From Lachnospiraceae bacterium (GTDB lineage Bacteria; Bacillota; Clostridia; Lachnospirales; Lachnospiraceae), in assembly GCA_017623295.1 (NCBI GenBank), contig JAGAPK010000010.1:1-43980 (forward strand): a DNA stretch of 43,980 bases. Reading direction: 5' to 3'. Made by a program: the position numbers and the translations under genes. The notes beneath the pieces are model-generated. The model ran no database searches and had not been told where the DNA came from. It saw only the letters and a program-made list of their open reading frames with translations. This document shows, one piece after another, positions 6,417 through 17,835 of this stretch (position 1 is the stretch's first letter; each line of letters opens with the position of its first letter).

Positions 6417-7334
6417 TTATGCTAAAATTTTGATTTTTTCAGTAATTCTGTCATAGTAGTACACGCTATAAGAAAGGATTTCTTCCGGTTCAACCTGTGT
6501 ATCATTCACTTCTTTTACCATATCCTTAAAAAGGCTTTTCTCTGTCGTTCCGTTATCCGGTACTAAAATGACTTCATGTACAGAACTTGGAAGAATAATC
6601 AAATTCTTATTCAATTTCTTTGTCAGCTCTTTCATTGCTTCCGAATACAGAATGGATGCTGCGCCGAAGATTCGGTCACGATTACTCAAAACATACATCA
6701 TAGTAGAAGTACTTTCTGACAAACCGATTTCATCTTCTTCTATTTCCTGTTGTAAGTTTTTCGATAAAAACTCCTGAATAATCTTTTTAATAGGAAGTAA
6801 TTCTTCCGGCAAAAGTTTTGTCATATTCGCTTTGGCATCCTGATATAACGTATCAACGTCAATCCCCCACATTTTCAGATGGCTGTTACGAATGAGTATG
6901 GTTGCCTTTCCACAATATTCTTCTTCCATAGCATAATAGAAAACAATCGCAAGATCATTCCATTTCACATACGGAATATCCTCTAACAATTTCCGGTTAC
7001 TTTCCAGATGAATCAGCTTATATAAAACGCGTTTCTTTACCTGTGCATATTGCGTGAAGAAATTCATATCCATCTGAATTTCTTTCGCACTTCTTTGATA
7101 AGCGCATAAAATATCATAGATGATGTCGCCGAAGGCTCTGCCTTCCTTATAGTCATCATATAACTCATCAATATAGATAGTTGGCGAAACATTGCTTCCT
7201 TCTTTTGCAATAATAATACCGCGAAGAACTACACCATTGTTTTTCGTAACTTCTTTGTAAGCAATTTCATATTCTTCGCCCATCACTTCTTTTAATGCAC
7301 TGCATACTTTCGTTTTAAATTGTTCAAAAATCAT
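6417..7334 (-). CDS. DUF5688 family protein
   Basis: 305 residues, soluble, with no signal peptide. It resembles DUF5688 proteins, which are common in Lachnospiraceae and have no known function. The marks are an N-terminal TKNNGVVLRGIII block followed by SPTIYIDELYDDY, then MYVLSNRDRIFGAA and the C-terminal ILPSSVHEVILVPD and VNDTQVEPEEILS blocks. The frame is open upstream to 7523, but ATG 7334 has AGAGGAC just before it and matches the family start. The longer start would run through the efp terminator. The family name is from memory of these blocks. Confidence 0.8.
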   Translation of the reverse strand: MIFEQFKTKVCSALKEVMGEEYEIAYKEVTKNNGVVLRGIIIAKEGSNVSPTIYIDELYDDYKEGRAFGDIIYDILCAYQRSAKEIQMDMNFFTQYAQVKKRVLYKLIHLESNRKLLEDIPYVKWNDLAIVFYYAMEEEYCGKATILIRNSHLKMWGIDVDTLYQDAKANMTKLLPEELLPIKKIIQEFLSKNLQQEIEEDEIGLSESTSTMMYVLSNRDRIFGAASILYSEAMKELTKKLNKNLIILPSSVHEVILVPDNGTTEKSLFKDMVKEVNDTQVEPEEILSYSVYYYDRITEKIKILA

Positions 7335-7410
7335 TTTGTCCTCTCTTTCTTTTCTCTCCGGACAAAATTTCTTGGAAACATGCATAGCCATGTACTCAAC
7401 TAAACACACA

Positions 7411-7450
7411 AAACAAAAAGACAATGAAAAAGAAATCTTCTCCATTGTCT
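7411..7450 (-). terminator. efp terminator
   Basis: Minus-strand stem AGACAATG / CATTGTCT with a 16-base loop, followed by TTTTTGTTTT. It lies 36 bp past the efp stop codon. Confidence 0.85.
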
Positions 7451-7485
7451 TATAAGCTCTTAGAAAAATGTAGTTACAGTATCGA

Positions 7486-8043
7486 TTATACTCTGGACAG
7501 ATATTCGCCTGTTCTGGTATCAATCTTAATCACTTCACCCTGACTAACGAATAATGGTACCATAACTTTTGCACCTGTTTCAACGATAGCTGGTTTGGTT
7601 GCACCTGTAGCTGTATCGCCTTTGAAACCTGGCTCTGTATCTGTAATCTCAAGTTCTACGAATAATGGTGGCTCAATAGCGAATACATTGCCATTGTAAG
7701 AACAGATTTTAACCATCTCATTCTCTTTTACAAATTTCAAGGAATCGCCTACTGCATCAGCGTTTAATGCAATCTGGTCATATGTTTCAACATCCATGAA
7801 GTTGTATAAATCACCATCATTGTACAAATACTGCATGTCTTTTCTATCAATACGTGCCTGTGGGCATTTCTCAGTAGGTCTGAAGGTTTTTTCAACAACA
7901 CCTCCATTGATAATGTTTTTTAATTTTGTTCTAACGAAAGCAGCTCCTTTACCAGGTTTTACGTGCTGGAACTCAATTATCTGATAAACATTACCTTCAA
8001 ATTCAATGGTAATACCATTTCTGAAATCGCCTGCAGATATCAT
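7486..8043 (-). CDS. efp: Translation elongation factor P
   Basis: 185 residues, the standard length. EF-P enters stalled ribosomes and promotes peptide-bond formation at polyproline stretches. Domain I shows [13 protein letters not shown], where K32 is the loop lysine that is modified in many bacteria. The closing signature [11 protein letters not shown] is typical. The ATG at 8043 follows TTAGGAGGATTATTTT. It has its own terminator. No modification enzyme gene (epmA/epmB or ymfI-like) is seen nearby. Confidence 0.98.
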
Positions 8044-8123: not shown

Positions 8124-8156
8124 AAAAAAAGGCTAAAACTTTTTTCATTTTAGGCC
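8124..8156 (-). terminator. Terminator of the ROK kinase gene and upstream operon
   Basis: Minus-strand GGC(C)TAAAA / TTTTAGCC stem followed by seven T. The left arm overlaps the ROK stop codon. Confidence 0.85.
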
Positions 8157-9019
8157 ATTGCCTGTCTTGCAAGCTCCAGACAGCCCATAATTCCCTGATT
8201 ATCATTCAGGCTGGCCGGCACAATATAATGTTCCAAATCTTCTATCTGTTTTGTTTTGATATATTCGCCTAATAATACCTTAACATAGCTGCGAATCATT
8301 GGGAAAAGCTGTTCCTGATGCATAACACCGCCACCTAAAATAATCATTTCCGGTGATAAAATCATAATATAATCTACCAGTGCCTGTGCAATATAATAAG
8401 CCTCCAGATCCCATACTTCTTTCCGGTCCTTTAACTCAATTGCTTTCTGGCCCCAACGATCTTCAATTGCCGGTCCGGCTGCCATACCTTCCAGACAAGT
8501 CTGATGATAATGACATTTTCCTTCATATTCATCATCACTACGTCTACGAATCAATACATGACCTGCTTCCGGGTGCATCATACCGTGAAGCAATTTTCCT
8601 TCTACATAAACTCCGGCACCGACTCCGGTTCCAATCGTAATGTAAACGACATTATTTTTTCCTTTTGCCTGACCAAAGGTTACTTCTCCAAGTGCTGAAC
8701 CATTGACATCTGTATCAAAACCAACCGGACAGCCAAGTGCTTTTTTGAAAGCACCTACCATATCACAATTAATCCAAGGTAATTTTGTCGTGCTTGTGAT
8801 ATAACCGTAAGTATCCGAATCTTTGTTCAAATCAATCGGACCGAAGCATCCGATTCCCAATGCTTCGATTCCTTTTCCCTCAAAGAAAGAAATCAATTTC
8901 GGAATCGTAATTTCCGGTGTTTCGGTTGGAATAGATACCTGTTCATAAATTTTTCCTGTTTCATCTCCGATGGCACATACCATCTTTGTTCCGCCTGCTT
9001 CTAATGCTCCTAATTTCAT
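8150..9019 (-). CDS. ROK-family sugar kinase, probable fructokinase
   Basis: 289 residues. ROK kinases phosphorylate free hexoses with ATP. The phosphate-binding block LEAGGTKMVCAIG is at the N-terminus. The catalytic aspartate lies in FDTDVNGSALGE, followed by TIGTGVGAGVYVEGKLLHG. The zinc-site motif GHVLIRR...CHYHQTCLEG has the His/Cys set of bacterial fructokinases (ScrK/YdhR/GmuE type). The start ATG 9019 has AGGAGAAGG upstream. It is the last gene after the ABC importer and its regulators, so it may phosphorylate the imported sugar. The true sugar is not determined by sequence alone. Confidence 0.85.
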   Translation of the reverse strand: MKLGALEAGGTKMVCAIGDETGKIYEQVSIPTETPEITIPKLISFFEGKGIEALGIGCFGPIDLNKDSDTYGYITSTTKLPWINCDMVGAFKKALGCPVGFDTDVNGSALGEVTFGQAKGKNNVVYITIGTGVGAGVYVEGKLLHGMMHPEAGHVLIRRRSDDEYEGKCHYHQTCLEGMAAGPAIEDRWGQKAIELKDRKEVWDLEAYYIAQALVDYIMILSPEMIILGGGVMHQEQLFPMIRSYVKVLLGEYIKTKQIEDLEHYIVPASLNDNQGIMGCLELARQAMA

Positions 9020-9061: not shown

Positions 9062-9137
9062 CTTATTCCGTTCTTCTTTATTGATTGTTCTCTTCTTTAC
9101 TTATTCCGTTGATCTTTGTTGATTGTTCTCTTCTTTA
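9062..9137 (-). repeat. Two 38-bp tandem repeats (plus a decayed third) across a stop codon
   Basis: 9062-9099 and 9100-9137 differ at only four or five positions. A shorter degenerate copy follows toward the ROK start. On the minus strand the unit is purine-rich (TAAAGAAGAGAACAATCAA...). The upstream copy encodes the C-terminus of the degenerate ABC protein and its stop lies at the unit junction. Confidence 0.8.
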
Positions 9138-10621
9138 TTGATTGCGTATTTTTCTTGATACAAATGTAGCCAAGGTGTATTGACCGGAAGCTTAATAAAC
9201 TCTTCTTTACCATATACCTCCTGCACTTTTCCATGTTTAATCCGAACAAGCCTGTCAGCCAGTGCCAGTGAATCCGCCAAATTAATTGCCAGAATCACTA
9301 CTGCTATATTTCTGTTTAGGAATCGTTCCAGCAATTCCCAAATATGGCTTCTGATAGATACCTCCGCACTTTTAAAAGGCTGCACGCAGAACACAATTTT
9401 CGGATTTTGTAATAAAATTCTGGTATAGACCAAATCGTATTTTTGCTTTTGGCTAAGCTGCTCAATCTTGCACTGAAATACATCTTTTCCCAACAAATCA
9501 CTGTACTCTTCGACAATGCTTTTGCGAATTCCGCCGGTCAGCCAGACTCTTTTGAAACGATGATCCATATTAAAACAAAGATTGTCCATATAGCTCATTC
9601 TTGGAAACAACATGGATTCTGTCGGAAGTTCCTGAATCACTGCCACTCTTCTGTCTGCATAAGAAAAATCTTTGCCATCCAAAAACAAATGTCCGCTCTC
9701 TGGTTTTGCTCCTTCAAACAAACTGATTAAATCTTTAAAAATTTTGTTGTCCAAATCCTGGAGTACCAGACATTCTCCCGGTGTCACACGGATATTCAAA
9801 TCACGCATGCTGCCATAATATAAATGACTTGTTTCAAATACCGCCTGCTTATTCCGGTTTTCTTCCGTGATATCAAACTGTTTTCTGACCCACCTGTCGT
9901 AATCTTCCACACTTTCCAGGGAAAAGGTATCCGGGAATTTCTCATTTCGTCCAAAACACTTGATAATCTGTCCATTCTCCATCAACGCAGTTCTGTCACA
10001 GATTTGTCTTGCCTCTTCAAAATGAGCCGTAATGTAAAGGAACGAAATTCCTTTTCCCGCATAATAGCGTATAATTTCATGTAGCTTTTCAAGCTCGCTC
10101 TCGCTGATAAAAGTACTGATATCTGCAAGTACAATCAATCGGGTTCCGGATACAACCGCTTTTAATAATTCTACCACAAAACACTCGAATGCGGATAGTT
10201 CATCTATGTAAGCGTTCGCATTAATTTCCATGCCAATTTCTTCCAGAAAAGGCTGTAACTGCTTCTGCAAAACATTCGGCTTTATCAGCCATTTTTTGAA
10301 GCCGGACCGAAGTACGAAAATATTATCTACTACGGTTAAATCCTCTGCCAGACAACTTTTGCTCTGGATAATGCTAATCCGGTTTGTAGTATTTGTGGTT
10401 CGGTTCCACTGGTTTACCAGCTTATCCCGATAATAGACAAAGCCATAGTGCAGAGGAAGATTCTGCTTCAATAACTTTAATAAGGAACTTAATCCATAAT
10501 GATTTACCGGCACCAGCCCAAAGATTTCTCCGGTCCAGATTGTCATGTTGAAATTATCAAGGCAAACGTTTCCCTGTTCCTTATAGGTTACTCGTTCCAT
10601 TCGCAAAGTTTCTGTTTTCAT
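9101..10621 (-). CDS. Degenerate tandem ABC ATPase (RbsA/MglA-like pseudo-ATPase)
   Basis: 506 residues, the length and two-domain layout of a RbsA/MglA sugar-import ATPase, but both nucleotide sites have decayed. Domain 1: the P-loop position reads GLVPVNHYGLSSLLKLL (about 35-51), lacking GKS/T. The signature is LSAFECFVVELLKAV and Walker B is LIVLADIST, lacking Asp-Glu. H200 survives. Domain 2: the P-loop position is LQDLDNKIFKDLISL, the signature LSQKQKYDLVYTRILL and Walker B KIVFCVQP. The frame is intact, so the protein is probably maintained. Its start (ATG 10621, AGGG upstream) overlaps the kinase gene by 41 bp, which suggests coupled translation. Energy coupling is unlikely. A structural or signalling role towards the neighbouring importer and kinase is inference. 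Confidence 0.8.
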   Translation of the reverse strand: MKTETLRMERVTYKEQGNVCLDNFNMTIWTGEIFGLVPVNHYGLSSLLKLLKQNLPLHYGFVYYRDKLVNQWNRTTNTTNRISIIQSKSCLAEDLTVVDNIFVLRSGFKKWLIKPNVLQKQLQPFLEEIGMEINANAYIDELSAFECFVVELLKAVVSGTRLIVLADISTFISESELEKLHEIIRYYAGKGISFLYITAHFEEARQICDRTALMENGQIIKCFGRNEKFPDTFSLESVEDYDRWVRKQFDITEENRNKQAVFETSHLYYGSMRDLNIRVTPGECLVLQDLDNKIFKDLISLFEGAKPESGHLFLDGKDFSYADRRVAVIQELPTESMLFPRMSYMDNLCFNMDHRFKRVWLTGGIRKSIVEEYSDLLGKDVFQCKIEQLSQKQKYDLVYTRILLQNPKIVFCVQPFKSAEVSIRSHIWELLERFLNRNIAVVILAINLADSLALADRLVRIKHGKVQEVYGKEEFIKLPVNTPWLHLYQEKYAINKEENNQQRSTE

Positions 10622-11654
10622 TCGTTATTTCCCTATCACTTGTAATCGTCGGCAATGTAATTTCTACATCGGTTCCTACATCCGGCATGGAATAAACATG
10701 CAGTCCGTATTCTTCTCCAAAAAGAAGATGGATTCGGTTATTTACATTGACCAGGGCAATACCGCCTTTGGTTTCGGATTCCTTATCCGAAAAAGCTTTT
10801 GCACTTTTCTGTAAACGCTCATTCATATCTGCAAGTGTCTTCGCATCCATTCCGACACCATCATCCGAAATACGAATCAGCAATCTTTTACCGGTACGTT
10901 CCAGACAGATTTTCAAATGTCCTGTACCGATTTTGCATTCCGTTCCATGAATAATACTGTTTTCCAGAATCGGCTGCATCGTAAGTTTCGGTAAACGATA
11001 GCTGTAAATCTCATCTTTCTCGTCTTCATTACATTCAATCGATAAATTCAGACGTTCTCCGAAACGATATTGTTGAATTTTAAAATAGGTCTTGCAGTTC
11101 TGTATCTCTTCTTCTACGGAAACCAGATTCTCAACATTACTGATTGTATATCGGAAAAAGCTCGCTAACGCTTCTGTCATATCTGCCACACTGGCAAGTC
11201 CCGCAATCAACGCTTCACTACGGATACTCTCTAACGTATTATATAAAAAATGAGGATTAATCTGGTTTTGCAATGCCAAATACTGAGCCTGCCTTTTGTT
11301 TATGTTAAGAAGCTCCGCTGAGTTCATAATCTCTTCCAGCTTCTTTGTCATCATTTCTGAAGTAGGCGTTAGCTGTGATTCTTTGCTGTTTGCTACACTG
11401 CTCGTTGTATAACCATCCAGAAAAAGTTTCATTCGGTCTTCCATTCTACGATAAGGGCGTAAAACCCATGCATAGGCAACCCACATTAAAACTGCATTCA
11501 AGGCACAACCTATGATAATCGGAATCAGAAGGAAACTCTCTCCCCTTAGAAAAGCAACGAAAAGCATAATCAGCAAAAACGCCATTAAAAATACTTCACA
11601 ACATCCCAAAGCGAATACTCTGTATGATACAAAATGCCATTTCTGTTTCTTCAT
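10581..11654 (-). CDS. YesM-type sensor histidine kinase with minimal extracellular region
   Basis: 357 residues. Two membrane segments (about 13-36 and 42-66) are joined by a loop of only a few residues (RGESF). Many YesM kinases have a large extracellular dCache sensor there. The His_kinase core follows: NQINPHFLYNTLESI with phospho-acceptor H135, and a HATPase domain with the N-box LENSIIHG and G-box SDDGVGMD. It pairs with the upstream AraC-type regulator (13-bp gap; GAGG before the ATG). With no room for its own ligand domain it probably senses through partners, plausibly the adjacent importer, binding protein or dead ATPase. Confidence 0.88.
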   Translation of the reverse strand: MKKQKWHFVSYRVFALGCCEVFLMAFLLIMLFVAFLRGESFLLIPIIIGCALNAVLMWVAYAWVLRPYRRMEDRMKLFLDGYTTSSVANSKESQLTPTSEMMTKKLEEIMNSAELLNINKRQAQYLALQNQINPHFLYNTLESIRSEALIAGLASVADMTEALASFFRYTISNVENLVSVEEEIQNCKTYFKIQQYRFGERLNLSIECNEDEKDEIYSYRLPKLTMQPILENSIIHGTECKIGTGHLKICLERTGKRLLIRISDDGVGMDAKTLADMNERLQKSAKAFSDKESETKGGIALVNVNNRIHLLFGEEYGLHVYSMPDVGTDVEITLPTITSDREITNENRNFANGTSNL

Positions 11655-11667
11655 ACACTATCCTCAC

Positions 11668-13251
11668 TTAGCCATACAGTTTTCGATATTCTGCCGGATT
11701 TACACCGGTCATTTTATGAAATGTATGGGTAAAATGCTTTCTGTCATTATAACCAACTTTTTCACATATTTCTGCTACCGGCATATTGGTTTCACGCAAA
11801 AGATTCTTGGCTTCTTCCATGCGCACCCTCATCAGGTATTTCGCAAAACCTTCTCCACATTCCTTCTTAAACATGGCACTGAAATAAGCCGCACTGAAGC
11901 CGACATATTCACAAACTTCTTCCAACGTAATATTTCTGTCAAAGTTCTGCATAATGTATTGCTTTGCAATCCGAATCGGTCTGGAAGACTCACTCTCCTG
12001 TTTCTCCATCTTATCAAGAATTGTCTTCTGCTGTAATTTCTTCAGTTCTGCAAATAATCCGGCTATTGTACCACACTGCATGCACTGTGCATCAAAAGAA
12101 CTCTGTATTTGTTCGGCATCTTCTATGCCGGTTCTTAATAGGAAAAATCTGCCTGCCATTAACACAAGTTCCAATACTTCCCGGCCTCTGATATCCACAA
12201 CTTCCATAATCGCATTCTGTAAATTCTCATCTGCCAGAAACACACCCTCCACATCCAGCACTTCAATGGAATGTTCTGCAGCTTTGACATATTTATCCAT
12301 CAAATTCTGCTTCTGAATACCAGAAGAAGGTGGCACATTTTCCAAAAGTCGTCCACAGCCCTCTAACAATCGCTCTGCGGCTGCCATCTCAGCTTTCTCC
12401 ATAGAATCTAGCAGCATTTCCGGTTTTTCTTCCACACTTCCAAGACCAAGTGTAAAATCCACAGTGCCGAGTAGATGTTTGTTCCCTTCCAACTGTTTCA
12501 AAAACTCATGAATCTGCCGTCGCACATCATCTTTATTTTCCGGCATATAATTCAAAATACCATAACCGGTGTGATCCAGAAAACCGAGAATGCAATCTTC
12601 ACAATAAGGCGCTATCTCTGTTTCAAATAATTCTCTGGCCTTTTCCTGAATCACAACAAAGGAAGAAGCATCCACTTTTTCCCTGTCACAATCAATCTTT
12701 AAAATAAAAGTCTGATAATATCCGTCTGATACCATAAAATGATATGTATCATGAAGATTTTTAACACTCAAATTCTTATTCTTACTAAGAACATCCTTTA
12801 TCAAACCTTCTCTGAGTCTGTTTAAATCATTCTGACTACGAATGAAATTCTGTATTACATCTATTTCTTGTTTTCTCTCTTCCAACCGAATTTTGATTTT
12901 CTGTAAGGTTTCTATCAATTCCTCTTGTTTGATTGGTTTGAGAATATAATTTTCTACGCCATATGTCATAGCGGTTCTTGCATATTCAAAATGAGCATAA
13001 CCGCTAATAATAACTATCTCCAAATCTGGTTTAATTTCCCTTGCCTGCTTGATTAGATCAAGTCCATTACATCCCGGCATACGGATATCTGTAATTAAAA
13101 TGTCCGGATCATGTTTTTCAATCATTTCCAACGCCTCAAGTCCATTTTCAGCCGTTGCTTCTAAACTCATATCCAATGCCGACCAGTCCACCAATGCCTG
13201 AACCAATCTGCATATCAGCTTTTCATCATCTGCGATGATTACCTTCCACAT
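11668..13251 (-). CDS. YesN-type response regulator with AraC DNA-binding domain
   Basis: 527 residues. A receiver domain (about 1-120) has D8/D9, phospho-acceptor D55 in ILITDIRMPG and the lysine in NYILKPI. A long middle region (about 135-400) of the kind common in YesN proteins follows. A C-terminal AraC pair of helix-turn-helices (about 425-527) has ITLEEVCEYVGFSAAYFS, CGEGFAKYL, and KVGYNDRKHFTHTFHKMTG followed by NPAEYRKLYG. The ATG at 13251 follows GAGGG. It lies between the binding-protein gene and its kinase. The likely target is the importer promoter region at 17840-18060, inferred from position. Confidence 0.92.
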   Translation of the reverse strand: MWKVIIADDEKLICRLVQALVDWSALDMSLEATAENGLEALEMIEKHDPDILITDIRMPGCNGLDLIKQAREIKPDLEIVIISGYAHFEYARTAMTYGVENYILKPIKQEELIETLQKIKIRLEERKQEIDVIQNFIRSQNDLNRLREGLIKDVLSKNKNLSVKNLHDTYHFMVSDGYYQTFILKIDCDREKVDASSFVVIQEKARELFETEIAPYCEDCILGFLDHTGYGILNYMPENKDDVRRQIHEFLKQLEGNKHLLGTVDFTLGLGSVEEKPEMLLDSMEKAEMAAAERLLEGCGRLLENVPPSSGIQKQNLMDKYVKAAEHSIEVLDVEGVFLADENLQNAIMEVVDIRGREVLELVLMAGRFFLLRTGIEDAEQIQSSFDAQCMQCGTIAGLFAELKKLQQKTILDKMEKQESESSRPIRIAKQYIMQNFDRNITLEEVCEYVGFSAAYFSAMFKKECGEGFAKYLMRVRMEEAKNLLRETNMPVAEICEKVGYNDRKHFTHTFHKMTGVNPAEYRKLYG

Positions 13252-13383: not shown

Positions 13384-15189
13384 CTATTTGGAAAGTACAG
13401 AAACACCTGTATCTGATACAGCTCCACCTAAGCTTTCACCTTCCAATGCCTGTACACAAGCTTCTACACCCATAGAACCCATTACATCAGGATTCTGTGC
13501 CATTGTGCAAAGTAAATGTCCATCTTCAATTAATCCAAGAATTGCATCAGATTTATCAAAACCTACACCAATGATTTCAGCATTACCGGATGCTTTGATT
13601 GCATTACCTGCACCTGTTGTAGAACCTTCGTTACATCCGAAGATACCAACTACACCCTGTGTAATATAGTTTTCTGCAATGCTCTGAGATTTTGCCGCAT
13701 CACCTTCGCCATACTGTGTTTCAAGAAGTTCGAAATCAGTTCCTTCAAATGCGGAACGGAAACCTTCTTCTCTCATAACACAGGAATCGGTTGCTGCATT
13801 TACATTGATAATACCGATTGTACCACTTGTGATACCTTTAGCTTCTAAAGCTTTTTTCATTTCTTCGCCTGCTGTTGCACCAGCTGCTTTGTTGTCTGTA
13901 GAGAATGTTGCTTCTGCTGCTACGTTTGCAGGAGAGTCAACATAAACGATTTTAACACCGGCTGCAGATGCTTCTTCTAATGCGGAAGAAATAGCATCAG
14001 GACCATTTGCTGCAACCATGATTGCATCATAGCCGCCTGCTACTGCATTATTAACACATTCAATCTGCTGTGCATCATCTTTTGTGTTAGGGGACATGAA
14101 TGTTACGGAAACACCAAGTTCCTCTGCTTTTGCCTGAGCACCTTCATTTAATGTTACCCAGTGCTGGTCAATGGAGTCCATTGTAATTAAAGCGATTTTC
14201 CATTCTTTAGATGCTGCTACATCGGTAGTTGCTGCATCATCACTGCTTGCAGATGCATCTGCTGTTAATACGGAAACACCTGTATCAGTAACTGCGCCAC
14301 CAAGGTCTTCACCATTGATTGCTTTTACTGCTGCTTTTACGCCTTCATAACCCATTACATCAGGATTCTGAGCCATTGTACAAAGTAAGAATCCATCTTC
14401 AATCAATCCAAGGATTGCATCAGATTTATCAAAACCAACACCGATAACTTCTGTATTACCGGAAGCTTTGATTGCGTTACCTGCACCTGTTGTAGAACCT
14501 TCGTTACAACCGAAGATACCAACTACCCCCTGTGTAATGTAGTTCTCTGCGATGCTCTGAGATTTTGCTGCATCACCTTCGCCATACTGTGTTTCAAGAA
14601 GTTCGAAGTCTGTTCCTTCAAATGCGGAACGGAAACCTTCTTCTCTCATAACACAGGAATCGGTTGCTGCATTTACATTGATAATACCAATTGTACCACT
14701 TGTAATACCTTTCGCTTCCAATGCTTTTTTCATCTCTTCACCTGCTGTTGCACCGGCTGCATTGTTGTCTGTAGAGAATGTTGCTTCTGCTTCTACGTTT
14801 GCAGGAGAGTCAACATAGATAATTTTAACTCCTGCATTTGCAGCTTCTTCCAAAGCGGATGAAATAGCATCCGGGCCATTCGCTGCCACGATGATTGCTT
14901 TTGCACCTGCACTAACTGCATTATTAACACATTCGATCTGCTGTGCATCATCTTTTGTATTAGGTGCCATGAACTGAACTTCTACTCCTAACTCTGCTGC
15001 TGCCTTCTGAGCACCTTCATTTAATGTTACCCAGTGCTGGTCAATAGAGTCCATTGTGATCAATGCGATCATAGTATCGAAGCTTGCTCCTTCTGTTGAT
15101 GTGGAAGCTTCTGTTCCTTTGTCTCCACATCCTGTTAACATTGCCATCATCATGCACAATGAACAGATTACTGCTAAAAGCTTTTTCAT
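13384..15189 (-). CDS. Lipoprotein sugar-binding protein with two tandem type I periplasmic-binding domains
   Basis: 601 residues, twice the family length. A lipoprotein signal has lipobox LTGC (C21) and a Ser/Thr linker. Two complete type I (ribose/galactose-type, Peripla_BP_4) domains follow, about 38-312 and 330-601, with a period of 291 codons. Both begin IALITMDSIDQHWVTLNEGAQ, and 102 consecutive residues in the middle of each are identical. The ATG at 15189 has AAAGGAGG ten bases upstream. It should deliver ligand to the permease at 15290-16306 from the outer membrane face. Two sites per polypeptide could raise local ligand capture or separate transport from sensing. The sugar cannot be named from sequence. 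No stop or frameshift interrupts the fusion. Confidence 0.93.
   Translation of the reverse strand: MKKLLAVICSLCMMMAMLTGCGDKGTEASTSTEGASFDTMIALITMDSIDQHWVTLNEGAQKAAAELGVEVQFMAPNTKDDAQQIECVNNAVSAGAKAIIVAANGPDAISSALEEAANAGVKIIYVDSPANVEAEATFSTDNNAAGATAGEEMKKALEAKGITSGTIGIINVNAATDSCVMREEGFRSAFEGTDFELLETQYGEGDAAKSQSIAENYITQGVVGIFGCNEGSTTGAGNAIKASGNTEVIGVGFDKSDAILGLIEDGFLLCTMAQNPDVMGYEGVKAAVKAINGEDLGGAVTDTGVSVLTADASASSDDAATTDVAASKEWKIALITMDSIDQHWVTLNEGAQAKAEELGVSVTFMSPNTKDDAQQIECVNNAVAGGYDAIMVAANGPDAISSALEEASAAGVKIVYVDSPANVAAEATFSTDNKAAGATAGEEMKKALEAKGITSGTIGIINVNAATDSCVMREEGFRSAFEGTDFELLETQYGEGDAAKSQSIAENYITQGVVGIFGCNEGSTTGAGNAIKASGNAEIIGVGFDKSDAILGLIEDGHLLCTMAQNPDVMGSMGVEACVQALEGESLGGAVSDTGVSVLSK
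13390..15069 (-). repeat. 873-bp internal tandem duplication in the binding-protein gene
   Basis: Copy 1 is about 14263-15069 and copy 2 about 13390-14196. The central parts are nearly identical at the DNA level, with scattered third-position changes and a fully conserved run around 13755-13820 / 14628-14693. The edges diverge more. This pattern suits duplication plus partial gene conversion. Confidence 0.85.
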
Positions 15190-15289: not shown

Positions 15290-16306
15290 TTATGATGTTG
15301 CTTTTTTCTTGAATACACCATTTCTTACAACGACATCCAGAAGTACCGCACATACAACGATGATACCGATTACAAGTCGCTGGATACCAACCTGTGCACC
15401 GATCATGTTAAGACCATTTTCAAGTGTCTGCCATACAGCGGAACCTGCAAGTGTTCCAAGTAAAATACCGGTACCACCAAGCGGTGAAATACCACCGATA
15501 ACACCTGCTGCGACAGCGTACATTTCGTACATATTACCAGCTTCCATGTTACCCATACTTGCCTGACCGCAAAGAATCAGACCAACTACGAAAGAACAGA
15601 ATGCACTTACCAAATATGTTTTGGTAACAGTTGCTACTACATTTACACCGGATAATTTTGCCGCATCTACGTTAGAACCGATTGCATAAATATGTCGTCC
15701 TGTTCTTGTTTTAGAAAGCAAGAAGAAGAAAACAATAAATAAAATAATGGCAATCCAGAAAGTATTATACACTCCTGCTGTCTGTCCATAATAAAACACA
15801 TTCTGGAAAGTTTCTGCAGATTCTTTACCAATACCGGAAGCAATTGCATCTGTGTTACGGTTTCCGTTTACCATGTAAGCAATACCTCTTGCTACGAACA
15901 TTGTACCAAGTGTAGCAATAAACGGTGGTAACTGACATTTTCCAACTAAGAAACCATTGATAACACCGATAGCCATACAGCAGCAAAGTGAAATGAGAAT
16001 TGCCACTAATGGATTAACTCCCATTGCCATAAGGGTTGCAGTAATCATGGAACTCATGCCAACTACAGAACCGATGGATAAGTCGATGTTACCTGTAATC
16101 AATACATAACTCTGACCGATACCAATAATCAAATATTTTGACATAGAACGAAGTAAATTCATAACGTTCTGCCCTGAAAATACGTTTGGATTAATAATAC
16201 CAAAAGCAATATAAATGATAATCAAACCTACAAAAGCTGTCAGGGCTCCACCCATACCTTTAATACTTAAAAGCTTTTTCAGCGGATTTTGTTTTTTCTG
16301 ATTCAT
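15290..16306 (-). CDS. Sugar ABC transporter permease (RbsC/MglC family)
   Basis: 338 residues, about eight to ten membrane segments. It forms the membrane channel of a ribose/galactose-type importer. Family blocks seen are GQSYVLITGNIDLSIGSVVG, CQLPPFIATLGTMFVARG, TRTGRHIYAIGSNVDAAKLSGVNV and ISPLGGTGILLGT. A strong GGAGG lies ten bases before ATG 16306 and overlaps the end of the ATPase gene, so the two are co-transcribed. It should partner the intact ATPase upstream and the tandem binding protein downstream. Confidence 0.95.
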   Translation of the reverse strand: MNQKKQNPLKKLLSIKGMGGALTAFVGLIIIYIAFGIINPNVFSGQNVMNLLRSMSKYLIIGIGQSYVLITGNIDLSIGSVVGMSSMITATLMAMGVNPLVAILISLCCCMAIGVINGFLVGKCQLPPFIATLGTMFVARGIAYMVNGNRNTDAIASGIGKESAETFQNVFYYGQTAGVYNTFWIAIILFIVFFFLLSKTRTGRHIYAIGSNVDAAKLSGVNVVATVTKTYLVSAFCSFVVGLILCGQASMGNMEAGNMYEMYAVAAGVIGGISPLGGTGILLGTLAGSAVWQTLENGLNMIGAQVGIQRLVIGIIVVCAVLLDVVVRNGVFKKKATS

Positions 16307-16320
16307 TTCTTTATCTCCTC

Positions 16321-17835
16321 CTATTTCTCATCACTGACTATTTTTTTCTCAAACTGTGTTGCCAGTGTCAGAATTTCATTTTGTGTTATTCCTTCTGCCA
16401 TTACCTCACCGGTAATACGGCCGTCACACATAACAAGAATTCTATCTGCAATTCCCATTACTTCCGGCATTTCAGAGGAAACAAAAACAACGGCAATGCC
16501 TTGTTTCTTTAATTCATTCATCAGGTTATAAATCTCAACCTTAGCAGCAACGTCGATTCCTCGTGTCGGCTCATCAAAAATAACCACTCTGGAATTTCTT
16601 GCTAACCATTTTCCGACTACAACCTTCTGCTGGTTACCACCGGAAAGGTTCTTTGCATCAATCTCAACCCCCGGTGTTTTGATTTTCAAATCCTTAACTG
16701 CCTTATCACACATTTCTGTTTCTTTGCTTCTATTAACAACCCCTAATTTATTACACAAAAGATCTAAATTTGGAAGTGCTATATTATGTCTGATACTAAG
16801 TTTTGTGCACAAACCATCTTTCTTTCTATCTTCCGGTGCAAGTACGATGCCGGCCTTAATGGCATCTCTTGGACAAGTAATTTTTACTTCTTTACCATCT
16901 AAGATGATTTTACCGCCCTCTTTTGGGTCTACACCGAAAATAGCTCTTGTAGTTTCTGTTCTACCGGCACCCATCAATCCTGCAAAACCAACAATTTCGC
17001 CTTCGTATACCGAGAAACTGACATCTCTTACCATTCGTCCTGCATTCAGATGTTTTACTTCAAAAATCTTCTTTCCTTTTTCACAGGATACACGAGGAAA
17101 TTTTTCTTTGATTTCACGGCCTACCATATAAGCAATGATTTCATCCATTGTTGCATCCGCAAAGTTCATACTTGTTATGTACTGACCGTCACGCATGATG
17201 GTAACACGGTCTACAATATGCTGTAATTCCTCTAATCTGTGGGAAATATATACAATACCGCATCCTTTCGCTTTCAGTTCTTTGATGATACGGAATAAAT
17301 CTTCAATTTCTTTAGCTGTCAATGCTGATGTCGGTTCATCCATAATCAACACTTTGGCATTAACAGATAATGCCTTTGCTATTTCTACCATCTGCTGCTT
17401 GGAAACCGGAAGTTCTCCTACGGTCTGCTTCGGATCTAAGTCAATTTTTAACTCATCCAGAATACGTTTAGCTTCCTGCTCCATCTCATGATTCGAAAGA
17501 ATGATTCCTTTTCTTTTCTCTCTTCCTAAGAACATGTTCTCCGCAACCGATAAATGTTTACACATATTCAGTTCCTGATGAATAATGGCAACCCCGACTT
17601 CCTGTGCAAGTTTCGGAGTCAAGTCCCCATATTCCTTTCCGAAAATCTGCATCTCTCCTTCATCTCTTGTGTATACGCCACTGAGAATTTTCATCAATGT
17701 ACTTTTGCCAGCACCGTTCTCACCAAGAAGTGCTAATACTTCTCCCGAACGCAGCTCGAACTTTACATGATCAAGTGCTTTAACACCTGGAAAGCTTTTG
17801 CAAATATCTTTCATGGATACTATTATTTCACCCAT
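16321..17835 (-). CDS. Sugar ABC transporter ATPase, tandem domains (RbsA/MglA family)
   Basis: 504 residues from the ATG at 17835, which has GGAGG six bases upstream; an earlier in-frame ATG (17856) lacks one. Domain 1 has intact Walker A GENGAGKST, a signature-region PVSKQQMVEIAKAL and Walker B LIMDEPTSAL. Domain 2 has the usual RbsA second-site variant GLMGAGRTE, the signature LSGGNQQKVV and DEPTRGIDV. It powers import through the permease that follows 14 bp downstream. It contrasts directly with the decayed relative at 9101-10621, which probably arose from a copy of such a gene. It is the first gene of the cluster. Confidence 0.95.
   Translation of the reverse strand: MGEIIVSMKDICKSFPGVKALDHVKFELRSGEVLALLGENGAGKSTLMKILSGVYTRDEGEMQIFGKEYGDLTPKLAQEVGVAIIHQELNMCKHLSVAENMFLGREKRKGIILSNHEMEQEAKRILDELKIDLDPKQTVGELPVSKQQMVEIAKALSVNAKVLIMDEPTSALTAKEIEDLFRIIKELKAKGCGIVYISHRLEELQHIVDRVTIMRDGQYITSMNFADATMDEIIAYMVGREIKEKFPRVSCEKGKKIFEVKHLNAGRMVRDVSFSVYEGEIVGFAGLMGAGRTETTRAIFGVDPKEGGKIILDGKEVKITCPRDAIKAGIVLAPEDRKKDGLCTKLSIRHNIALPNLDLLCNKLGVVNRSKETEMCDKAVKDLKIKTPGVEIDAKNLSGGNQQKVVVGKWLARNSRVVIFDEPTRGIDVAAKVEIYNLMNELKKQGIAVVFVSSEMPEVMGIADRILVMCDGRITGEVMAEGITQNEILTLATQFEKKIVSDEK

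Follow-up and report, generated by a model that had tools for sequence, protein, structure and literature searches.

The 43,980-nt contig analysed here (the window), from a Lachnospiraceae bacterium, encodes a tandem ABC protein of 506 amino acids that, judged from alignment and profile comparison, is a descendant of an RbsA/MglA-type tandem ATPase without a competent ATP site. We refer to this protein and its relatives as pseudo-ABC (pABC). Their partnership with a short, sensorless histidine kinase is in our assessment very probable, and we think it rather likely that pABC serves as a nucleotide-independent adaptor coupling a CUT2 sugar importer to that kinase.

An RbsA-type ABC protein encoded beside a histidine kinase

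The pABC open reading frame lies on the minus strand, has an ATG start and contains no internal stop; as the initial annotation had pointed out, it begins inside the kinase gene, with which it overlaps by 41 nt. It is part of a run of minus-strand genes in the order RbsA, permease, binding protein, regulator, kinase, pABC, ROK sugar kinase and elongation factor P. The labels YesM/YesN, CUT2 and elongation factor P are those that we take to apply to the window genes. The main features are as follows.

9101..10621, minus strand: pABC, RbsA-type tandem ABC protein lacking a competent ATP site (ORF and alignment)
10581..10621, minus strand: overlap of the kinase and pABC genes, 41 nt (ORF coordinates)
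10581..11654, minus strand: histidine kinase of YesM/LytS type, 357 aa, His_kinase (PF06580) and HATPase_c domains (Pfam)
11668..13251, minus strand: response regulator of YesN type, 527 aa, receiver and AraC-type DNA-binding domain (Pfam)
13384..15189, minus strand: two-domain sugar-binding protein, two Peripla_BP_4 domains in one ORF (Pfam)
15290..16306, minus strand: RbsC-type permease, BPD_transp_2, 338 aa (Pfam)
16321..17835, minus strand: intact RbsA-type tandem ATPase of the importer (Pfam, NCBIfam and motif comparison)

The size and two-domain layout of RbsA/MglA proteins, and the presence of an intact paralogue beside it, had been proposed for this locus and are both borne out: pABC aligns with the intact ATPase over 468 columns at 23% identity (E 7e-35), and within its own genome the second-best match to pABC is this same RbsA, at 24%. 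The only Pfam family found on pABC at E 0.001 is ABC_tran (54 bits), and no PhoU domain was found in that search. In a profile search against NCBIfam the top model was a xylose ATPase (131.7 bits against a cut-off of 699), and no curated cut-off was reached among the best 25 of 114 matched models; assignment to a known equivalog family was rejected on this basis. Since the intact paralogue also falls short of its best cut-off (589.5 against 699 bits), the NCBIfam cut-off alone does not discriminate pABC from RbsA. The protein has the tandem ABC fold of about 500 aa that is typical of RbsA, MglA and XylG, the CUT2 ATPases with which it has ancestry in common; it differs from them in lacking the one competent ATP site formed by the N-half Walker A and B motifs and the C-half LSGG, in being encoded with a kinase, and in having an intact RbsA in its operon. 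No CUT2 ATPase appears by title among the 50 listed VIA-align structure matches (Foldseek) to pABC. For plasmid-borne relatives, 1668 plasmid records matched; no such relative was recognised among the ten listed, whose identity was at most 25.0%, like that of canonical ATPases.

Both sides of the composite ATP site are lost

In tandem ATPases of this type the N-half Walker motifs pair with the C-half signature in a composite site. Both sides of this site can be followed in the window protein, where two remnants stand out.

10484..10510, minus strand: N-half Walker A remnant PVNHYGLSS, residues 38-46 (alignment to RbsA)
9377..9385, minus strand: C-half Walker B remnant VQP, residues 413-415 (the Glu position is Gln in 30/42 members; Pro kept in 42/42)

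In the N-half, the Walker A sequence GENGAGKST has become PVNHYGLSS and the Walker B residues DE have become AD; in the C-half, the signature LSGGNQQ reads LSQKQKY and the Walker B residues DEP read VQP. The two loops that the initial annotation had picked out as former signatures are present in the translated protein, LSAFECFVV at residues 142-150 and LSQKQKYDL at residues 389-397. Its claim that the motifs are destroyed in both halves needs some correction. The Walker B acids, the N-half lysine and the C-half signature are indeed gone; the first serine of the N-half Walker A motif is retained, however, and the threonine is replaced by serine. The C-half Walker A lysine is absent as described, but its absence is ancestral rather than a sign of destruction, because this position is arginine in all 36 operonic RbsA proteins compared. 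On these comparisons, the RbsA-type ancestor had one competent composite site, of which pABC has lost both sides.

The same losses run through the family. None of 42 members has the first glycine of the N-half Walker A motif or a strict N-half Walker A sequence, and none has the C-half LSGG or the C-half Walker B aspartate. What survives in the N-half is scattered: the Walker A lysine in 11 members, the Walker B aspartate in four, the Walker B glutamate in 13 and both acids in two. The C-half catalytic glutamate is glutamine in 30 members and glutamate in one, followed in all 42 by proline. Four of the 11 members that keep the N-half lysine also have serine or threonine directly after it, so that nucleotide binding without hydrolysis is possible for some members.

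pABC is a family under purifying selection

The 42 sequences comprise the window protein, L001-L006 and 35 further loci, and 41 of them are full-length. Two broken copies, L007 and L008, stand outside the 42 and are included in the 43 loci used for neighbour counts; L023, taken as the same genome as L001 for its equal identity to the window protein, was not counted, and L009-L014 were excluded as canonical or unrelated ABC matches. Searches used an alignment of six relatives as the query, over genome sets that overlap and all include the source genome. Among near genomes, 6 of 61 had a match above 500 bits, and the next match scored 158.5 bits. The larger samples yielded matches in at least 14 genomes of the order (392 searched), 13 of the class (391) and 7 of the phylum (398); the pABC and kinase frequencies are lower bounds, because in both the pABC-first and the kinase-first searches of the large samples only the best 3-6 candidates per genome were scored. 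In a quick tree, all 42 pABC sequences fall on one side of a branch that separates them from 45 canonical ATPases (SH-aLRT 100, with long-branch warnings); in the same tree, two pABC go with an RbsA of another clade.

The initial annotation had read the uninterrupted frame as a sign of selection, a view strengthened by the 41 full-length members among 42 and by dN/dS. In the eight of ten pairs with measurable dS, pABC dN/dS is 0.04-0.23; over the same eight pairs the kinase gives 0.02-0.24 and the regulator 0.01-0.21, with several-fold differences in both directions in single pairs. The pair of the window and L001 has saturated dS (dN 0.085) and yielded no ratio. Random stops in relatives, which would have spoken for decay, were sought in 44 members, of which 41 are full-length, L068 has an early stop, and L007 and L008 are broken. 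The tblastn alignments of the six near-genome pABC show no stop in the body of the protein and one stop at the C-terminal end, and the remaining members with flagged stops read as open ORFs, L068 excepted. On these grounds, the pABC family is under purifying selection and not in decay, and pseudogene decay was rejected in view of the fixed motif loss in 42 members and the low dN/dS.

Three copies are defective. The pABC of L068 (L068:1090-2427, minus strand) ends at what corresponds to window residue 448, around 50 residues early; no homologous in-frame sequence was found past this stop, of which decay or assembly may be the cause. In L007 and L008 assembly faults are likely, because neighbouring genes are also broken or missing.

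A short kinase without a sensor domain accompanies pABC

In the window kinase, hydropathy marks roughly residues 12-65 as hydrophobic, interrupted by charged residues around 37-40. We read this profile as two N-terminal hydrophobic helices joined by a loop of about four residues (by eye), and the kinase has no sensor domain. Two helices and a very short extracytoplasmic loop are the hallmark of intramembrane-sensing kinases, and the window kinase has this architecture as judged by hydropathy alone. Such kinases also take their input from an accessory protein or a transporter, a part for which pABC is the candidate here, by its linkage and fusion to this kinase type. The N-terminal hydrophobic stretches of the other pABC-linked kinases fit the same arrangement (hydropathy, by eye), and the catalytic motifs are invariant in 37 aligned pABC-linked kinases. 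One linked kinase, L140:7163-7936 (plus strand), is a frame of 257 aa without a membrane helix, directly after the regulator gene.

A kinase gene adjoins pABC in 42 of 43 loci. The exception is an orphan pABC at L091:8115-9569 (plus strand), located between isoleucyl-tRNA synthetase and peptidase-like genes (by eye) with no kinase or importer nearby. Of 51 kinase/pABC gene pairs, 30 overlap and 48 are no more than 30 nt apart, some overlaps among ten divergent pABC pairs being inflated by untrimmed starts. The module is ordered response regulator, short histidine kinase, pABC, usually near a CUT2 sugar importer, and one genome (G418) carries five such triads.

The association also holds when the kinase is the starting point. 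A search of 392 genomes with a kinase alignment returned 15 top matches that adjoin exactly the 15 pABC genes found separately. The next ten short kinases each have, immediately downstream, a divergent pABC that the first pABC search had missed, and LSGG is kept in none of these ten. All 25 listed short kinases in this sample (frames of at most 410 aa) therefore have an adjacent pABC, a rule that covers the listed matches only, which extend down to about 211 bits; none of eight long unfused kinases has a pABC within 1.5 kb. In the class sample an adjacent pABC was found for 14 of 15 short kinases and, within 1.5 kb, for none of 14 long kinases (at least 447 aa). The long kinases thus inspected number 22, all without pABC, with the fused kinase (L117/L141/L142) left out of the count. 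Ten of these 15 short kinases were already known through the pABC searches, and four of the five new ones have a pABC. One of the 14 is on the opposite strand from its kinase (L156:2411-3928, minus strand), the two genes being convergent rather than codirectional.

The remaining short kinase, L171, has no downstream pABC; instead, a tandem ABC protein, which we call L174_X (L174:3779-5470, plus strand), is encoded upstream of its regulator. Each half of L174_X has intact Walker A and Walker B motifs, whereas the signature is degenerate. In another quick tree, with long-branch warnings, L174_X attaches on the branch that separates the canonical ATPases from the whole of pABC, the position expected of a stem relative; its own branch is long, and it is possibly an evolutionary intermediate.

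The kinase and the pABC N-half are fused in two species

Proteins that occur naturally as a fusion are classically taken to act together. Genome G316 encodes a protein of 616 aa in which a two-helix kinase (318 bits) is followed by the N-half of pABC (profile positions 2-224); the ABC part scores 89.8 bits with the pABC profile and 29.8 bits with the RbsA profile. Genes for RbsA, permease and binding protein lie nearby on the same strand. The same in-frame fusion occurs in G1183, of the genus of G316, with 87% identity over residues 1-615, and between the two dN/dS is about 0.11 for the kinase part and about 0.16 for the pABC part. A third genome of the genus, G1184, has an unfused triad; among 17 genomes of the genus, two have the fusion, one the triad, and 14 gave no match at the threshold. 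The fusion carries the N-half only, which implies that neither the C-half nor its cleft is required in every case.

The importer operon and presumed docking segments

A same-strand canonical RbsA gene accompanies pABC at 36 of the 43 loci, and a permease gene at 34. Four of the seven loci without RbsA (L068, L076, L083 and L094) lie within about 5 kb of a contig end; the other three (L007, L074 and L091) do not. The triad may precede or follow the importer genes, and the neighbours of divergent triads are CUT2 importers of other types. In the window, the ROK kinase gene directly after pABC (8150-9019, minus strand) is closest to fructokinase ScrK (297.1 bits, cut-off 400), a hint that the importer sugar may be fructose or a relative. 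Two genes past it, at 6417-7523 (minus strand), is a DUF5688 protein of unknown function (343.9 bits). The two halves of the binding-protein gene (13384-15189) have 89% protein and 85% DNA identity across 270 codons and share one identical stretch of 77 nt; several related operons also have a two-domain binding protein (ORFs of about 600 aa), and others a single domain.

Two segments of pABC are presumed to correspond to the clefts that receive the permease.

10298..10339, minus strand: presumed N-half permease-docking cleft segment LTVVDNIFVLRSGF, residues 95-108 (family conservation)
9554..9598, minus strand: presumed C-half permease-docking cleft segment MSYMDNLCFNMDHRF, residues 342-356 (family conservation)

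Such cleft segments would dock on the permease. At the nucleotide-motif positions (61) the mean conservation percentile falls from the 76th in RbsA to the 56th in pABC; at the cleft segments (46 positions, our own choice) it is 66 in RbsA and 65 in pABC. Mann-Whitney comparisons with the remaining positions in pABC gave p = 0.03 and 7e-5. Some old motif positions are still conserved with new residues, the N-half Walker B at the 68th percentile and the H-loop at the 67th. Overall, the N-half of pABC is more conserved than the C-half (0.537 vs 0.453), and the halves of RbsA are nearly equal (0.667 vs 0.649). Docking of pABC on the permease is plausible, given the retained conservation of the cleft segments and the proximity of a CUT2 operon, and we lean towards the view that pABC reads the permease; the cleft conservation could instead be due to constraints of the fold.

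Across 41 loci (leaving out L004, L007, L008 and loci without a gene), pABC distances correlate with those of the kinase, the regulator and the importer ATPase. Partial correlations are 0.19 for the kinase, 0.20 for the regulator, 0.38 for RbsA (a value that none of 500 permutations attained) and -0.05 for the permease; in 33 core loci they are 0.17, 0.48, 0.18 and 0.14, respectively. This mirror-tree result is weak, because operon mates share history, and it weakly favours a bridging role for pABC.

Alternative roles for pABC

By giving the kinase a single ABC half, the fusion would suit a pABC that is the kinase's own cytosolic input domain, sensing a sugar phosphate, a nucleotide or another metabolite with no permease contact, the importer being a regulatory target only. 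The linked kinase of L140 without membrane helices, the greater conservation of the pABC N-half beside the near-equal halves of RbsA, and the nil partial correlation with the permease (-0.05, 41 loci) fit this reading too. It sits less well with docking segments conserved in both halves, with pABC distances that also track the importer ATPase (0.38 in 41 loci, 0.18 in 33 core loci), and with the loss of the canonical nucleotide pocket motifs, and on balance we consider it unlikely, though a serious option. The conserved docking segments, together with the RbsA ancestry and fold, would equally serve a transport brake, in which pABC competes with RbsA for the permease and leaves importers idle, the kinase being its regulator and not its client. 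Yet the fusion places an ABC half on the kinase itself, linkage to the kinase (42 of 43 loci) is tighter than linkage to RbsA (36 of 43), two pABC are paired with an RbsA from a different clade, and divergent members stand beside other importer types; a brake is accordingly improbable.

A further possibility is that pABC is a switch that binds ATP and hydrolyses it poorly, some members reporting the energy or transport state to the kinase. The N-half lysine of 11 members and the DE pair of two, the sequence GLNGSGKST kept in L137, and the Walker motifs of the possible stem relative L174_X, with its degenerate signature, are compatible with this; the window protein itself has neither the lysine nor the DE pair, no member of the 42 has the full motif set, and the C-half signature is lost in every one, which makes such a switch very improbable. 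The broken copies in L007 and L008 and the shortened L068 are what a plain pseudogene or an assembly artefact would produce, and against them stand the 41 full-length members, the low dN/dS and the conserved family-specific residues, as well as the damaged neighbourhoods that make assembly faults likely in L007 and L008; we give this explanation almost no credence.

Discussion

The proposal of the initial annotation, a pseudo-ATPase that docks on a partner rather than driving import, is supported in its core by a conserved family without the motifs, by linkage to a sensorless kinase and by a fusion in two species. In the adaptor model that we prefer, pABC would be the third component of a module with a YesN-type regulator and a short two-helix kinase of YesM/LytS type. 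It would have originated as a CUT2 importer ATPase that lost its ATP-hydrolysis motifs and was recruited as a protein-protein adaptor. The N-half would bind the kinase and signal to its core by a change of conformation. The conserved clefts would dock on the adjacent RbsC-type permease from the cytoplasmic side, and there pABC could read whether a sugar-loaded binding protein engages the importer. The sensorless kinase would then phosphorylate the regulator, and expression of the importer operon would be adjusted. Physical contact with kinase and permease, the direction and sign of the signal, the identity of the sugar and the regulated promoter are points that we infer. The N-half-only fusion, the orphan pABC of L091, the short kinase L171 without pABC and the absence of RbsA from 7 of 43 loci cut against the adaptor model.

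Several known systems resemble this arrangement in part. The importer ATPase subunit MalK doubles as a signalling protein in the MalK-MalT system; MalK is an active ATPase and acts on a transcription factor, whereas pABC, which lacks the ATP site, goes with a kinase. Clostridia also have two-component systems, such as XylFII-LytS and CuaD, that are described as coupled to sugar importers. There a binding protein feeds the kinase from outside; in contrast, next to nothing of the pABC-linked kinase lies outside the cell, and a cytoplasmic location is predicted for its partner. PstSCAB-PhoU-PhoR, in the accounts available to us, has a separate adaptor between importer and histidine kinase, as we propose here. 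PhoU is helical and is not known to be related to ABC ATPases, whereas the pABC adaptor itself descends from one.

Another functional parallel is BceAB-BceS of Gram-positive bacteria, a flux-sensing ABC transporter with an intramembrane-sensing kinase, in which, according to the cited accounts, a two-helix sensorless kinase takes its input from an ABC transporter (PMC10314905, PMC8534201, PMC7828314), the permease has a large extracellular loop (PMC7828314) and this permease contacts BceS directly (PMC10314905). The likeness lies in a sensorless two-helix kinase tied to an ABC transporter. Bce as described there is an active transporter, however, whereas here a CUT2 importer with a binding protein is combined with a YesM/LytS-type kinase and a dead ATPase as the apparent go-between, and the window permease, of BPD_transp_2 (RbsC) type with 338 aa, is not a BceB-type permease with a large extracellular loop. 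The pABC module is best explained, by analogy, as working like BceAB-BceS and Pst-PhoU-PhoR and belonging to neither. We found no paper on a histidine kinase accompanied by a dead RbsA-like protein in titles and abstract openings, a search with most subscription journals and all preprints outside its scope.

Taken together, these observations may, as a tentative proposal that we hold at somewhat less than even confidence, define a class of sugar receptor built from importer parts. On the outside it would have a binding protein and a CUT2 permease, and on the inside pABC, reading without need of nucleotide, together with a kinase that has no sensor. The class would be phylum-wide and multiplied within genomes, as in the five triads of G418, with a graded series from L174_X through dead pABC to the kinase fusion. 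For annotation, pABC genes call for caution, as they score as sugar importer ATPases yet very probably cannot power transport. The family appears to represent an ABC ATPase converted to a signalling subunit. Some histidine kinases have no recognisable sensor, and for a group of the YesM/LytS type pABC is predicted, from sequence alone, to be the missing input partner.
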